64,000 nucleotides of DNA, from assembly GCF_017357825.1 (NCBI RefSeq), contig NZ_CP046072.1, forward strand, positions 1,736,001 through 1,800,000, written 5' to 3'. This document shows, one piece after another, positions 3,066-46,651 of the stretch (positions are counted from its first letter, which is position 1; every line of letters begins with the position of its first letter). The notes under the pieces were generated by a model that did no database searches, was not told where the DNA came from, and saw only the letters and a program-made list of their open reading frames with translations. The DNA is from Sulfurimonas aquatica (GTDB taxonomy: Bacteria; Campylobacterota; Campylobacteria; Campylobacterales; Sulfurimonadaceae). Both the position numbers and the translations under genes were made by a program.

Positions 3066-6000
3066 CTACCAATCATCTAAGACGAAACCTTTTGGTTCTT
3101 CGTCTGCTTCTTGGACATCAACATTTTCATTTATCTCTGGCTCTATCACTTTTTTCTCTTTAGGCTTACTCATCTGTTCTTCAAACTGAAGCTCTAGCCC
3201 TTTAGAAGTCATGATAAAACCATCAACTCTTATCTTTCCATCATGTATTAAGTGGTGATGCTCTTTACATAAAGGAACTAAATTATGCTTATTATCTTGA
3301 TGGAAATGTCCAATAAAGCCAGCACCATCGGCAAGTGAACGCTGAGAGATATGGTGAACATCTTCTGCAATAGCACCACAGATAATACATTTTGTAACAT
3401 AGAGGTCTTTGTTATACTTACTTGTCTTTTTCTTCACAAGCAGTTCTAACTCATCAAAATCATTTGATAAACGCTTACGGATTTTATTTGCCTCTTCTAA
3501 GAACTCATCATCCATATGAAGCGACTTTGCAAACTCTAAACCATATATGCTACTTCCACTGCCTTGTTGGAGCTTACGGTTAAAAATAAGTGCGTCTTTT
3601 TCTTCATCATACTCTACGCTTAGGTGCAGGTCCACTACGTTTTTAAGAGTCGTTATCTCTTTCATAGTTGAGAGTTGGTGCAGGTGCGTTGCAAAAAGAA
3701 AAAGACACCTAGTTTTTGCCAACTTTTTAATAGCGCTTGCGACTATCGCCACGCCTGATAGTGTTTCCGTTCCATGACTTATCTCATCTCCCAAGACTAA
3801 AGAGCGAACGGTTGAACGGTTAAAAATATTTTTAAGTTCAAGCATCTCAACAGCAAAGGTTGAAAGACCTTTAGCAAGGTTGTCTTTAGAGACAATACGA
3901 GTAAAGAGTGAATCAAAGATACTAAACTTCATAACAGCAGCGGAGACAAAAAATCCACTCTGAGCCATAAGTGTAGCTATCCCTATACTTTTCATAAGTG
4001 AAGATTTACCACTAGAGTTTATGCCATAGAGTAAAACACCATTTATCTCATGTCCATCATGAACGCTCACTTCAAGCATTACAGTATCTGGATGAGGCAG
4101 GTCCATATAGTCACGATTACCCATAACTATGTCATTGGGAACGTAAAGGCCACCTCTCTCTTGTATCTCAATGAGAGGATGACGAAGTTGCATTATCTGT
4201 ATAAAGTTTTCATCACCTTTTGGCTCTACTATCATTGGACGGGAGTGTTTATAGAGTTGAGCCACCTTAGATGAGCTAACGCCAACGTCAAGGTCTGAGA
4301 CATATGAGATAACTCTATCAAAAAGAAGTGCGTAACGGCGTTCATAAACACCCTGAAGCTGTATAAACCTATCTTTAACTAGCGTTACTATCTTTCTTCT
4401 GTTTTTCATTATCTTATCAGAGAGATCATCTGTAAAAGTAGAAGTTATTTTGACAGAGTTGGTAAGCTTTTTTACATTGTACTTTGAGAACTCTTCATCA
4501 CTTTTAAATTCAGCTTCTATAAGTGAGTATCTATTTTTACTCAAAGAGATATAATAACCCTCTTTTTCCAAAAGTCCAAGAGTAACCAAACGACTAGAAC
4601 TTCCCGCGTTTTGTGAGAGTAAAATACTTTCTATGCGTTTGATGATGTCCTCAAATGCTATGAGCATTACCGCGTTCTCTTTAACAAGAGTATCTATGGA
4701 CTCATCAACGCCATTCATTAAGAAGTTCTCATCTACGGTCGCATTGGTAAAACGTCGTGATACGTCTAGATCTATGCTTTTGTTAATATCTCTTAAAAAC
4801 TCTTCAACCTCACTCTCATGAAAAGGAGTCTTTTGAATCTTATGTTTTTTGACATACATCATCAATTCTTTAACGCTACTCATAGAGTCGTAAATGTGAT
4901 TCATTTCAAATGGATGCAGGCGACCAAGATTCAACCTACGAGATAAACGCTCTAAATCATAAACGCCACGCATCATCTCATCTAAGTATCTCGTGTGCGA
5001 AGAGACTCTCTCTATGAGGTTATATCGGCGTTCAAGTTCCGCTTTTTCCATGATGGGATTAAGTAGACGCTCTTTTAGTAAACGCCGACCAATTGCAGTT
5101 GCACTTCTATCCATCATCTTTAGAAGCGTAAACTCTTGCCTATCTTTAGAGATGATACCCATCTGCTCTAACGCATTGTTTCCAAGATACATAAAACGGC
5201 GATTATCTATTAAACGCGGCATAGACATCTTTTGAACTATGTGATAATCATGCTCTATTACAAAATGAATTAAGATTGCAAGAGACTCTGTAATCATAGG
5301 GGAGCGTTCAAGGTCTAAATGCTCTATTGGCGAGAGAAGAGATTGTATCTGATAGACCTCTTTAAATAGCTCATTTTGAAAATCTATGCGAGGTCTTTGG
5401 TTATTGACAGAGTAGTGATAATGCTCAGGAATTTCGAGGTACTGCATCACATGGCGTTGCTCTTCTACCCCATCTAAAAACGTAATAACTATCTCACTTG
5501 TTTTATATACGTTTAAAAGGTTAAAAACTTCATCAAGTGCATATGATGGGTCTTCGCTTGTAGAGTGTGTCTCATAGAGCCAAGTCTTTCCAGTCGTTAC
5601 GTCTATTGCCGAGTAGCCAACACTATAAACATCTCTATATTTATCTACAAGAATTGAGACTATGTAGTTATCATCATTATCTACTATATGGTCAAAATTT
5701 GTTCCTGGTGAGACTATTTGAGCGATATATCTACTTATCTTTGGTGGATTGCCTTTTTGTTTTACAACTATGATAGTATATTTTTGCTCTGAAATAAGGC
5801 GGCTTAAATAACGTTCAAATGAAACTGCAGGTACGCCCGCAAGAAGTGGATTTTTATCTGAGTTTTCAATGATGTTTTTATTTTTTTTAGTGAGTTGGAT
5901 ATTAAGTAGTTCAGCCATCTCTTTGGCTTTACCAATCTGCTCTTCATCGTTATTTACTTCATATACTTCAAAAAATGTGCCTATTTCCATAAACACTACA

Positions 6001-6107
6001 GTATCATTTCCGTATTTTTCTTCGAAATGTCTTTGTAAATCAAAATAAGTTTGCGTGAGAAGTTTGTCTTTGTTGTTTAAAATTTCACTTACGTCTGATG
6101 AGAGCAT
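3066..6107 (-). CDS. MutS7-type mismatch repair ATPase fused to a C-terminal HNH endonuclease
   Basis: This 1013-residue protein has a MutS mismatch-recognition domain with the Phe-x-Glu motif (GTFFEVYE, 43-50), connector and lever regions, and a MutS ATPase domain with Walker [10 protein letters not shown] (695-703) and Walker B LGDEISHG (772-779). After a charged linker comes an HNH nuclease: Cys907, Cys910, DVHH (916-919), HNLVPLC (941-947) and HHHLIH (950-955). This is the architecture of MutS7, known from Campylobacterota, some giant viruses and octocoral mitochondria. There it is proposed to combine mismatch recognition and strand nicking in one chain, without MutL. The acidic tail (980-1013) has no recognised domain. 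It is the first gene from its own promoter and is convergent with lapD. It is not canonical MutS1. Confidence 0.9.
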
Positions 6108-25799: not shown

Positions 25800-26128
25800 T
25801 GACTTATATCGCAGGTCTTGTAGTTATAGCACTTTTCTTTTTAGCGCTACACTATTTTACAGAACTTAATCATATGGAAAAGATAAATGTAACTATAATT
25901 GTTCTCTCTATATTAGCTATTATAGTCATGTATAATGAGTATAGTCAAAGTCAAAATGAAAAAATGATGGATGCTACACTTAGATTTGATCAAAACAAAA
26001 CTATACAATGTGATGGCGTTGACATAAATAAAACAAACTATACACTCAGTGTAGGTACATACACATTTATCGGTAAAGAAAACACTCCAAATTACAATAA
26101 AATGATCAGCGCTTCAACTTGCGAGTAG
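25799..26128 (+). CDS. Small membrane protein between murC and mutS2
   Basis: The 109-residue protein has two hydrophobic helices (about 2-22 and 28-46) and a C-terminal extracytoplasmic part with two cysteines (about 75 and 108), which could form a disulfide in the periplasm. I know no function. A similarly sized hypothetical gene occupies this place in Helicobacter. It overlaps murC by one base and the mutS2 start by ten. Confidence 0.7.
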   Translation: MTYIAGLVVIALFFLALHYFTELNHMEKINVTIIVLSILAIIVMYNEYSQSQNEKMMDATLRFDQNKTIQCDGVDINKTNYTLSVGTYTFIGKENTPNYNKMISASTCE

Positions 26129-28341
26129 ATACAAACAGATCAAAAATCGAGTTACTAATAAATCAACTCGATCTAAACGAACACATAGAACAGTTTCAAA
26201 GTTTCTTCTCTCGTGAACACTCTCTCTATATAGAGGGTGATCAAGAGCTTCACTTCAAGTATATTAAATCATTAGACAAACTAGAGTTTAAAGCCCCTCC
26301 TAAAGTATCGGACTTTACAAATATTAAAAATCATCTCAAGAAGCATGGTGTTTTGAATTTTGAGCAGATTTTTGAAATAGTTAAAGTTGTAAGATATTTT
26401 AGGTACTTTAAAAATCGTGAATTAGATGGCATTATTGGTGAATGGATGAGTAAGTTTATCATTGATGTTAAATTTACTGAAGTTGAGAAGTATTTTACCA
26501 ATGATGGAAAATTTGAAGAGAATCTAGATGAAACTCTCTTTGGTTTGAGTGCAAGAATCCAAGAACATAGAAATAATATGTCTGGTGCACTTAAACGCAT
26601 GATGAGTAGTTCAAAACTTGCTGGCTACCTTGTAGATACACAAGTGCATTTCATAAATAATGAAGATTGTCTTTTAGTTCGTGGTGGCTTTAACCATGTT
26701 CTAAAAGGTGCGGTAGTTGGGCGTTCTACTGGTGGTTTTTTCTATGTTTCACCCGATAGTATTTTAAAATCAAAAGAGCAGATTCGCTTTATAGAACAAG
26801 AGAGAGAGGCCATCTTTTATGAGTATGCCAAAGAGTTCTCAGCGAAACTCGCCGAACTTCAACCTTTTATAAACTTCATAGACAAAGAGTTTACAAAGTT
26901 TGATAATTATCAAGCGAGGGTTCTCTTTGCTAAAAGCAAAAACATGCAGCTTGTTAAGAGTAAAAATGACTCAAGAATAGTTTTGAGTGGATTTGTGCAC
27001 CCTGCCCTGCATAATGCCAAACCCATAACAGTAGATTTTACTAAAAACATCTTAATGATTACGGGTGTAAACGCCGGTGGTAAAACCATGTTACTGAAGT
27101 CTATACTCGCTTCTGCATTTATGGCAAAGTATATCATACCGATGAAACTTGACGAGCATAAATCTCATATTGGCTCTTTTAAAAGTGTTCTTGCTATCAT
27201 AGACGACCCACAAAATGTTAAAAATGACATCTCAACCTTTGCTGGACGTATGCAGGAGTTTTCTCGTATATTTTCAGAAAGTAAAGCTCTTGTAGGTGTT
27301 GATGAGATAGAACTAGGAACCGACAGTGATGAGGCAGCAGCTCTATTTAAAGTTATACTTGATGATTTAATTAAACGCGGGCAAAAAGTAGTTGTTACCA
27401 CACACCATAAACGCCTAGCCGCATTAATGGCAGATCGTGACGACGTTGAGCTTATGGCTGCCATCTATGATGAAGAACAACGTAAGCCTACTTATGAGTT
27501 TATGCAAGGCATCATTGGTAAGAGTTATGCATTTGAGACTGCTAGTCGTTATGGCATAAACAACGCCATCGTTAAAGAGGCTAAAGCGGTTTATGGAGAC
27601 AACTCGGAAAAGCTCTCTCTACTGATAGAGCGCGGTTCTCAGCTTGAACGTGAGCTCAAGCAAAAACATAAAAAAGTGGATGACAAGTTAGAAGAGCTAA
27701 GACTCAAAGAGCTTCATATAAAAGAGACAAGAGAAAAGAATCTTAAAGAGCTTGAAGAGCAAAAAGCGGCACTTAAACGCAGCTACGATGTAGCTATTAG
27801 TGAAGCCAAATCTGCTGCAAAAGCTGGTGACACCAAAGCTATTCATCGCGCTATGGACAAGGCAAATAAAAAACTTCCTCCTCAAAAAGAAGAGCTTATT
27901 AAACGCCATGAAAAGTTTAAAGTTGGAGACAGTGTCAAGTACCACTCGCAAAGCGGTCTTATCATCTCGATGAAGGGCGAAAAAGACGCGACTATAGAAG
28001 TCGACGGTATGCGTGTACGCGTAAAGACTAAACATCTCAAACATACTCAGATTCAAAAGATAAAACCAAAAACAGACGTAAAAGTTCAGGTAGAGAAAAA
28101 AGCTGGTCTCAAGTGTGATTTACACGGTATGAGAGCGGATGAGGCTTGTGATGAGCTTGATAAGTTCATCAGTAACGCACTTATAAATGGATGGGATGAG
28201 ATTATCATCTATCATGGTATAGGAACAGGAAAGCTCTCTTTTGCAGTTAAAAACTTCCTCATTGCTCATCCAAGCGTGAAAAAGTTTGAAGATGCACCAC
28301 AGCACTTAGGTGGTTTTGGAGCGAAGATAGTCACTTTATGA
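26119..28341 (+). CDS. mutS2: MutS2-type DNA/ribosome-associated ATPase with Smr domain
   Basis: The 740-residue protein lacks the mismatch-recognition domain of MutS1. It has core and clamp regions, an ATPase with Walker A GVNAGGKT (316-323) and Walker B VGVDEIELGTD, a long coiled coil (about 495-600), a KOW-like segment (about 605-640) and a C-terminal Smr nuclease domain with CDLHGMR (about 664) and HGIGTGKL. MutS2 proteins limit homologous recombination, and in some bacteria rescue collided ribosomes. Start: no ATG gives the N-terminus, so TTG at 26119 is the best choice; it has a poor ribosome binding site and overlaps the upstream gene, suggesting coupling. Confidence 0.93.
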   Translation: MRVDTNRSKIELLINQLDLNEHIEQFQSFFSREHSLYIEGDQELHFKYIKSLDKLEFKAPPKVSDFTNIKNHLKKHGVLNFEQIFEIVKVVRYFRYFKNRELDGIIGEWMSKFIIDVKFTEVEKYFTNDGKFEENLDETLFGLSARIQEHRNNMSGALKRMMSSSKLAGYLVDTQVHFINNEDCLLVRGGFNHVLKGAVVGRSTGGFFYVSPDSILKSKEQIRFIEQEREAIFYEYAKEFSAKLAELQPFINFIDKEFTKFDNYQARVLFAKSKNMQLVKSKNDSRIVLSGFVHPALHNAKPITVDFTKNILMITGVNAGGKTMLLKSILASAFMAKYIIPMKLDEHKSHIGSFKSVLAIIDDPQNVKNDISTFAGRMQEFSRIFSESKALVGVDEIELGTDSDEAAALFKVILDDLIKRGQKVVVTTHHKRLAALMADRDDVELMAAIYDEEQRKPTYEFMQGIIGKSYAFETASRYGINNAIVKEAKAVYGDNSEKLSLLIERGSQLERELKQKHKKVDDKLEELRLKELHIKETREKNLKELEEQKAALKRSYDVAISEAKSAAKAGDTKAIHRAMDKANKKLPPQKEELIKRHEKFKVGDSVKYHSQSGLIISMKGEKDATIEVDGMRVRVKTKHLKHTQIQKIKPKTDVKVQVEKKAGLKCDLHGMRADEACDELDKFISNALINGWDEIIIYHGIGTGKLSFAVKNFLIAHPSVKKFEDAPQHLGGFGAKIVTL

Positions 28342-44922: not shown

Positions 44923-46140
44923 CTATATGCTCTTTTGCTCTAAAAGCTCCATTGCTTGCACCATGTCTTTATCTCCGCGACCTGAGAGACTCACTATAAC
45001 CGTTTTACCCTCAATCTGCTCTTTTGACATCTTTTTGAGATAAGCGATTGCGTGAGCGCTTTCAAACGCAGGGACTATTCCCTCCGCCTTAGAGAGCCAT
45101 ACAAATGCGTCCATCGCTTCTTTATCCGTTATGGAGTCATATTTCACTTTACCCTGCTCCATCAAGTAGGAGTGTTCAGGCCCTATTCCAGGGTAGTCAA
45201 GTCCTGCACTTATAGAGTGTGCTTCGTTTATCTGTCCATCATCAGTTTGCAGAAGATAACTCAACTGTCCATGGAGTATTCCCGGTTTTCCAAGAGCTAG
45301 ACTCGCGCCGTGTTCTCCACTCTCTAATCCATGACCACCAGCTTCAATACCTATACACTGAGTATCTTCTTCGTTGATAAAGTGAGCAAACATTCAAAGA
45401 GCGTTACTCCCACCACCGATGCAAGCTATGACGTAATCAGGAAGTCTAGAAGTTTTCTCTAAAATCTGCTTTTTAGCCTCATCGCTAATGACCGCTTGGA
45501 AATCTCTCACCATAAGGGGATAGGGATGTGGACCCGCGGCGGTTCCTATGATATAAAAAGTATCTCTAGCGTTTGTAACCCAGTGACGAATGGCGTCGTT
45601 CATAGCATCTTTAAGCGTTCTACTTCCAGATGTAACGGGATTTATCTTAGCTCCTAAAAGTTTCATACGAAAAACGTTTAACTCTTGGCGTTCAACGTCT
45701 TTTTCGCCCATAAACACTTCACACTCCAGTCCCATCAGAGCGGCTATGGTTGCAGTGGCAACGCCATGCTGCCCCGCCCCTGTTTCTGCTATAACCTTTG
45801 TTTTGCCCATGCGTTTGGCAAGTAAACCTTGAACGATGGTATTGTTAACTTTATGAGCTCCCGTATGGTTTAGGTCCTCGCGTTTAAGATAGATTTCGGC
45901 GTTTAACTCTTTTGAGAGTGAGTCCGCTCTATATAAAGGCGAGGGACGACCTACGTACTCTCTAAAGTAGTGATTTACCTCTGCCCAGAACTCTTTGTCA
46001 AAACGCACTTTTTTGTACTCTTGCTCTAGTTCAAGAAGCGATGGCATTAGCGTCTCGGGAACGTACCTCCCGCCAAATATGCCAAAGTGCCCTCTCTCGT
46101 CAGGGTCAAAGTCAAACGCCGTTGGAATATAATCAGCCAT
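44923..46140 (-). pseudogene. trpB: Tryptophan synthase beta chain interrupted by an in-frame TGA
   Basis: One frame of about 405 codons (from MADYIP at 46140) encodes TrpB, which makes tryptophan from indole and serine. The PLP lysine (about 97) is in [13 protein letters not shown] at 45394-45396 breaks the phosphate-binding loop: IGGGSNAL, stop, then MFAHF. Relatives have Gly there (GGGSNAxGMF), so GGA to TGA is the likely single change. The codon after the stop is ATG, so the distal 156 codons could restart. The rest, to the C-terminal LSGRGDKDM, is well conserved, so the lesion is recent, or an error, or the gene is expressed as two pieces. Its start overlaps the flavin reductase gene by eight bases; trpA is not adjacent. 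Confidence 0.85.
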
Positions 46141-46651
46141 CTTCTCTTCTTGGTACTCTTTGTGGATTTTGTGACGTAGTTTCATAGTAGCCCTCGCCTG
46201 TAAAAAGGATTGGTTTTACGTCTTTTACGTCTTTGTTATGAATCATAGTAACTTCAGATATAAAAACGTCATGATCCCCATAGTTTAAAATGTCTATAAC
46301 CCTACACTCATATATCATATAAGCCTCTTCAATGAGTGTCGCGTTTATAGTTTGCGCTTTTTTAGGCGTCAATCCCGTAGACTTGAACTTATCTCCACCA
46401 TGCTCACTCCCACTCTTCTCAAAAGCTTCTATATATGAAAAGTCTAAAAAGTTTAAAGCAAACTGCTCATTTATATGCAGTAAGTCATATGACTTGTTCT
46501 CATCACGAACGCAAATGGCATAACATAGTGGAGATTTTGAGACAGGCATATGCCATGATAGTGGCATGATATTATTTGCAACACTTAGAAGTGCTGTTGG
46601 TCTTGGTTGTTTGTGACATGAAGAATCAAGTTTTGTTGTTGTGCTAAACAT
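46133..46651 (-). CDS. Flavin reductase-like FMN-binding split-barrel protein
   Basis: The 172-residue protein has the flavin-reductase-like fold: [25 protein letters not shown] (cut here: [14 protein letters not shown] at about 19-32), [10 protein letters not shown] and a [14 protein letters not shown] loop. Such proteins reduce FMN with NAD(P)H or bind it in a stand-alone electron transfer role. It is the first gene before trpB, overlapping by eight bases, which is a link without clear metabolic sense. Confidence 0.82.

Follow-up and report, generated by a model that had tools for sequence, protein, structure and literature searches.

As described in 2011 (PMC3166940, partial text), MutS proteins ending with an HNH nuclease domain occur in Epsilonproteobacteria, giant viruses and octocoral mitochondria; that they make up a self-contained repair system is a hypothesis put forward there. 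The same idea is advanced for the octocoral protein mtMutS in the available text of PMC8438181, and giant viruses, octocorals and Epsilonproteobacteria are the carriers named in the accessible part of PMC12292046. In Nautilia, MutS expression is altered under pressure, which concerns expression and not function (PMC10092268, partial text). A literature search of open-licence papers revealed no experiment, biochemical or genetic, that tests a bacterial MutS7. The name MutS7 is reportedly due to Ogata et al. in 2011. Architecture and self-repair hypothesis are already published, and the MutS7 family is known; added here are phylum-wide counts, the constraint on the HNH domain, the correlation of G-tracts with MutS7 loss, and phage carriers.

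Mismatch incision without MutL, as proposed for MutS7, is carried out by EndoMS/NucS, a protein unrelated to MutS7. A genome-wide search of the host studied here, Sulfurimonas aquatica, gave no NucS match (control genomes positive, 7/14). The MutS1-MutL(-MutH) system shares the mismatch domain, the ATPase and the overall fold with the MutS7 of the window, a term denoting the whole 64,000-nucleotide stretch analysed. The model of this MutS7 has a MutS body similar to the MutS structures of E. coli and human, with Z 27-37 (best 50 matches, MutS2 included). In contrast to that system, the host gave no MutL or MutH match in genome-wide searches (control genomes positive, 11/14 and 1/14, respectively), and MutS7 carries an added HNH and falls below the cut-offs of the NCBIfam MutS1 and MutS2 models (391.6 vs 480 and 310.4 vs 641.7 bits). 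Unlike MutS2, it has MutS_I and gives no Pfam match to Smr. Plant MSH1 is, as MutS7, a fusion of MutS to a nuclease, but it is not a direct relative, and its nuclease fold is different, GIY-YIG (PMC12292046, partial text). GIY-YIG is absent from the nine Pfam families matching the MutS7 of the window up to E 1.

Published MutS7 and mtMutS proteins feature the same domain order (I, III, V, HNH) and the same HHNH residues (PMC3166940, partial text). In the available text of that paper MutS7 is reported to have no domains II and IV; in contrast, the model of the window's protein aligns with E. coli MutS through the connector, and a phage relative (L154) has MutS_IV above the Pfam cut-off.

The mutS7 locus and the proposed mode of action

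An intact ORF with an ATG start encodes a MutS7 of 1013 amino acids, whose closest named relatives are from Sulfurimonas (91% identity). Features of the locus, and the sole other mutS gene, are as follows.

3066..6107, minus strand: mutS7 gene, MutS with C-terminal HNH (ORF, Pfam, homologue matches, 38-row alignment)
5691..6011, minus strand: MutS domain I, mismatch recognition, residues 33-139 (Pfam MutS_I E 1.6e-12, above cut-off)
5967..5975, minus strand: Phe45-Phe-Glu47, F-x-E mismatch motif (F45 and E47 invariant in 38 rows)
5196..5672, minus strand: domain II, connector-like and divergent, about residues 146-304 (MutS_II 18.3 bits, cut-off 25; model alignment with E. coli MutS)
4275..5174, minus strand: MutS domain III with clamp-like insert, residues 312-611 (Pfam MutS_III E 3.3e-22, above cut-off; model)
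3468..4034, minus strand: MutS domain V ATPase, residues 692-880 (Pfam MutS_V E 4.3e-46, above cut-off; Walker residues invariant)
3243..3389, minus strand: HNH nuclease core, Cys907-His955 (residue conservation and model; Pfam HNH_2 sub-threshold)
3069..3170, minus strand: acidic disordered C-terminal tail ending with KGFVLDDW, residues 980-1013 (pLDDT <50)
26119..28341, plus strand: MutS2, sole other MutS of the genome (MutS_V and Smr, no MutS_I)

Two features assign the protein to MutS7: MutS domains I, III and V, all present over the Pfam cut-offs, and, at the C-terminus, an HNH that has the H-H-N-H residues, as seen in alignments and model. We take the mismatch-binding role of F-x-E motifs to apply to F45-F-E47. 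MutS_II is sub-threshold and MutS_IV is unreported by Pfam; nevertheless, an alignment of the model with E. coli MutS starts at residue 128-130 and includes the connector region, and the region around 470-556, made of helices and strands, is clamp-like. Pfam HNH_2 scores 18.1 bits at residues 907-960 against a cut-off of 21, and the HNH assignment therefore rests on residues and model.

The AlphaFold2 model was built from 38 rows, and has mean pLDDT 81.8 and pTM 0.57. Two strands (916-919 and 943-946) and a helix (948-955) form the beta-beta-alpha HNH core at 916-955; the tail is disordered from residue 980. The placement of domains relative to each other is untrustworthy, because pTM is moderate and many alignments including domain I have rmsd of about 19-20. 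The four best matches in the viral structure library are all mismatch-repair ATPases of giant viruses, and number four bears the annotation 'MutS subfamily 7' (Tetraselmis virus 1, E 2e-59). A sequence search for HNH relatives among solved structures gave no credible match.

The host genome (2.85 Mb, 2 contigs) is 99.99% complete, with 4.22% contamination. Only two of its proteins, MutS7 and MutS2, carry MutS_V, and its single MutS_I match lies within MutS7. The first-pass annotation had read the gene as a fusion of an F-x-E mismatch domain, a MutS ATPase and a Cys/His-rich HNH, and had noticed a MutS2 lacking the recognition domain and no mutL or mutS1 in the window. The fusion is borne out by Pfam, invariant residues and model, and the MutS2 is as described. 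The lack of mutL holds genome-wide, and the only MutS other than MutS2 is MutS7, which scores below the MutS1 cut-off. The attribution to the MutS7 type of Campylobacterota and octocoral mitochondria agrees with domains, HHNH residues and the published family (PMC3166940, partial text). The first-pass suggestion of a MutL-free mismatch repair is borne out in part.

In the same window, an in-frame TGA (45394-45396) seemingly breaks a gene which is presumably trpB (44923-46185, minus strand) into a pair of ORFs.

The reading that we favour, at a probability of roughly 60%, is that MutS7 supports a MutL-free mismatch repair by both recognising and cutting on its own; the single chain would be sensor and incision enzyme. 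Domain I, with F45 and E47, would bind the mismatch or a small loop. A predicted dimer would become a clamp upon ATP exchange in domain V, and the HNH located behind the ATPase would cut DNA in a mismatch-dependent manner. New and old strands would be told apart in some way, and ordinary helicase, exonuclease, polymerase and ligase would complete the repair. MutL would have no part in it, because none is present. If this is true, a single polypeptide suffices for mismatch repair.

It is unlikely, though well conceivable, that MutS7 cuts instead both strands near a mismatch or a heteroduplex joint, that the break is mended by recombination, and that policing recombination may be the main role of the protein. 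Such a double cut is attributed to EndoMS/NucS and has been proposed for plant MSH1, recombination mending the break in both cases. Strand discrimination would be unneeded, and the genome has no MutH for a methyl-directed strand signal. MutS proteins dimerise, and a MutS7 dimer would bring two HNH sites. MSH1, with its GIY-YIG domain, is moreover a convergent MutS-nuclease fusion (PMC12292046, partial text). The G-tract data described below suit, however, any slippage repair, and do not separate a double cut from a nick.

MutS7 in the phylum and in phages

The phylum was surveyed in 397 genomes, evenly drawn. MutL was found in none of them (0/397; controls 11/14). MutS7 gave matches in 204 genomes. 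In 152 the match is strong, though in some partial; the other 52 matches are weak (best E from 1e-4 to about 1e-23), were scored as MutS7-negative, and none is accompanied by MutS_I. MutS_I was detected in 141/397 genomes, once per genome, and all 141 fall within the 152 MutS7-positive ones; eight MutS_I positions, compared by eye, are all inside the MutS7 ORF. Neither MutS7 nor MutS_I was found in 245 genomes. Since MutS_I matches are confined to MutS7-positive genomes, MutS7 appears, from sequence comparison, to be the sole mismatch-recognising MutS of the phylum. Eleven of the 152 MutS7-positive genomes gave no MutS_I match. The gene is fragmentary in three (G300, G389, G390) and frameshifted in one (G365); the others apparently escaped detection, which makes the MutS_I search incomplete.

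Families are designated f1, f2 and so on. MutS7 is found in 51/52 genomes of f1, 18/29 of f4, 9/9 of f5, 37/42 of f7, 11/11 of f8, 2/2 of f9, 19/22 of f10, 4/4 of f11 and 1/1 of f13, and in none of f2, f3, f6 (4 genomes) and f12 (1 genome). The MutS7 tree tracks families, with 9 changes against a minimum of 8, f1 and f4 being each split; it includes MutS7 rows only, results from a short search, and has long branches flagged. Several genomes of f1 genera g3, g5, g6 and g7 have two or three MutS7 matches, perhaps fragments or extra MutS-like genes.

Genes flanking mutS7 vary. Outside mutS7 none recurs in more than 7/33 loci, and across families none in more than 6/33, which fits a stand-alone enzyme. 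A conserved operon partner was looked for and discarded, as all clusters present in more than 7/33 loci correspond to mutS7 itself or to overlapping shadow frames.

Two IMG/VR contigs (L156 and L155) encode MutS7-HNH proteins (L153 and L154, respectively), 37 and 40% identical to the MutS7 of the window; L154 shares 39-43% identity with the six bacterial rows compared. Within about 9 kb of the L153 gene there are a portal of the T4 type (PF07230, E 4.3e-113) and a tail tube, which make L156 clearly a tailed phage. The contig encoding L154 carries a phage-type replication initiator, a helicase, an exonuclease and RNase H; no structural genes were found in the 17.8 kb read. Tailed phages may be a new class of carriers of MutS7-HNH. 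No HNH-bearing relative was found in GenBank phages among the matches listed. The matches listed in tblastn searches came from phages (20 of the 30 records), plasmids (15 of 84) and, with a 960-residue query, again phages (12 of 29). The alignments stop at or before query residue 912 (the 20 phage and 15 plasmid matches listed) or residue 869 of 960 (the 12 phage matches listed), and the listed matches are accordingly regarded as devoid of HNH. Nothing supports a mobile origin of the mutS7 of the window, the phage and plasmid matches listed being 22-27% identical and without HNH.

Long G-tracts and the loss of MutS7

Homopolymers are expected to lengthen when mismatch repair is missing. In the available text of PMC2147049 (2007), the absence of MutL and MutH was tied to G:C tracts in three genomes. 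According to the same text, such tracts are lacking in Arcobacter butzleri, S. denitrificans and W. succinogenes, a working repair was suspected, and MutS2 and DnaQ-type exonucleases were considered. Judged by the comparisons below, MutS7 is a better candidate than these for the suspected repair, W. succinogenes being a possible exception.

Tracts of at least nine G (G≥9) were counted in the 397 genomes, and tracts of exactly six (G6) in 160 of them, for normalising. The G≥9/G6 ratio, with 0.5 added to each count, was compared in 158 genomes, the HNH-less G027 and G310 being excluded and the frameshifted G365 counted as MutS7-positive. All the MutS7-less members found of f1, f4, f7 and f10 were included; MutS7-positive and f2/f3 genomes were hand-picked with the G≥9 counts already at hand. 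The ratio has a median of 0.022 in the 69 MutS7-positive genomes, as opposed to 0.358 in the 89 MutS7-negative ones. Most of the contrast lies between families, and the comparison within families is therefore the informative part. Within f1, f4, f7 and f10 the mean log difference is 1.09 (stratified permutation p=0.0013 by genome, 0.006 by genus), and the Mantel-Haenszel ratio is 5.4 (MutS7-negative vs MutS7-positive). Pooled G≥9/G6 counts without and with MutS7 are as follows.

f4: 22/1447 vs 23/4907
f7: 28/101 vs 12/427
f10: 13/91 vs 10/479
f1: 0/21 vs 7/1025

Same-genus pairs follow the predicted direction in only 6/9 cases. From composition only, G≥9/G6 would be about p^3/(1-p), or about 0.0065 at 35% GC, a figure near the pooled MutS7-positive values.

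Because the MutS7-positive members of the ratio test were hand-picked, G≥9 tracts per Mb were also compared in all the 145 members found of f1, f4, f7 and f10, unpicked and not normalised to G6. Loss of MutS7 goes with about threefold more tracts (log difference 1.08, permutation p=0.00015; by genus means, difference 1.13, p=0.0003). The result is driven by f7 and f10; f4 genomes have the same median G≥9 count, 1, whether or not they carry MutS7, and f1 contributes a single MutS7-less genome, with zero tracts. All 152 MutS7-positive genomes taken together have a median of 1 tract, and 141/152 have at most 3. Exceptions are found in both directions. Long G-tracts are few in some genomes that lack MutS7 (G≥9/G6: G167 6/750, G336 1/203, G205 0/28, G131 0/290, G105 0/16, G307 0/21), and three MutS7-positive genomes, included in the 145-genome test and outside the ratio test, have many (G323 32, G303 12, G266 11).

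The data back a role of MutS7 in slippage repair, and are compatible with lifestyle as the cause of the contrast. They fit a mismatch-repair function, and make the published hypothesis more likely as far as genome comparison goes. Small genomes are common among MutS7-less members, and loss of repair is therefore confounded with lifestyle and with selection for switchable genes. The contrast might then reflect lifestyle, MutS7-less lineages having selected switchable genes, and MutS7 might do otherwise, for instance control recombination. The exceptions just listed speak for this, as does the complete lack of MutS7 in f2, f3 and f6, which may represent one or few events. We hold it nonetheless for rather improbable, as the contrast recurs inside f4, f7 and f10 and in the unpicked 145-genome set, and all 38 aligned rows retain the mismatch residues F45 and E47.

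If MutS7 is a repair enzyme, its absence offers a testable cause for the hypermutable G-tracts of Campylobacter and Helicobacter as opposed to many environmental relatives. Wolinella succinogenes is a relative of Helicobacter. It is listed as tract-free in the available text of PMC2147049, and no strong MutS7 match was found in any f2 or f3 genome of the 397-genome survey; the absence of MutS7 alone may therefore be insufficient for G-tracts to arise. A broader scenario, in which one sense-and-cut protein, perhaps acting on both strands, replaced MutS-MutL phylum-wide, its repeated loss made slippery G-tracts of the Campylobacter and Helicobacter kind, and tailed phages carry the same enzyme, is speculative and, taken as a whole, doubtful.

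A-tracts were discarded as a second measure of slippage. Tracts of at least 11 A, for which A7 tracts served as baseline, occur in 21/80 genomes, with and without MutS7, at 0-2 each except in G314 (MutS7-positive, 11, the highest) and G012 (MutS7-negative, 7), and are uninformative. In G323, the ten tracts listed among the 32 are all preceded by C, and perhaps represent a repeat family or an assembly artefact.

Conservation of the HNH domain

Residues F45, E47, G700-K701-S702, D774-E775, C907, C910, H918, H919, N942, C947, H950, H951 and H955 are invariant in 38/38 aligned MutS7, rows being hand-chosen with HNH-less and frameshifted proteins excluded. His919 and Asn942, which the first-pass annotation had singled out as HNH residues for mutation, were rightly chosen. 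HNH is kept in 34 of 35 diverse MutS7 rows, which include one HNH-less protein (L057). In a set of 21 genes, formed by the mutS7 of the window and 20 picked from 80 loci, non-synonymous changes per site come to 0.082 for domain I, 0.084 for domain V, 0.100 for HNH, 0.113 for domain II, 0.124 for III/IV and 0.283 for the tail. By this measure of sequence change the constraint on HNH nearly equals that on domains I and V, the latter being the ATPase. The dN/dS ratio was set aside, synonymous sites being saturated among the 21 genes.

Zinc ligands can interchange Cys and His. The two phage MutS7 retain the counterparts of C907, C910, H918, H919, N942, C947, H951 and H955; residue 950, His in bacterial MutS7, is Cys in both, probably a zinc-ligand exchange. 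That HNH is vestigial or a purely DNA-binding zinc domain, another nuclease making the cut, is very improbable, in spite of the sub-threshold Pfam score and of a congener keeping MutS7 without HNH (L070), since the 38 bacterial and two phage rows all have H918, H919, N942, H951 and H955 and the constraint on HNH is close to that on the ATPase.

L070, from G027, a 1.3 Mb genome, is a 784-aa protein which lacks also residues ~456-582. Its C-terminal end, KGFVLNDW, resembles the KGFVLDDW of the window's protein; in the 35 diverse rows the tail is missing from most other families, and may serve partner binding. Truncated or frameshifted mutS7 genes were noticed in six more relatives (L057, L058, L059, L067, L068, L069). 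The gene lacks HNH in G310 and is split in G291, G206, G237, G235 and G365. They may reflect genuine decay or sequencing errors; intact copies exist in relatives. As a point against the favoured reading, only 0-2 long G-tracts are found in each of the genomes in which mutS7 is split or HNH-less (G206, G235, G237, G291, G365, G310 and G027).
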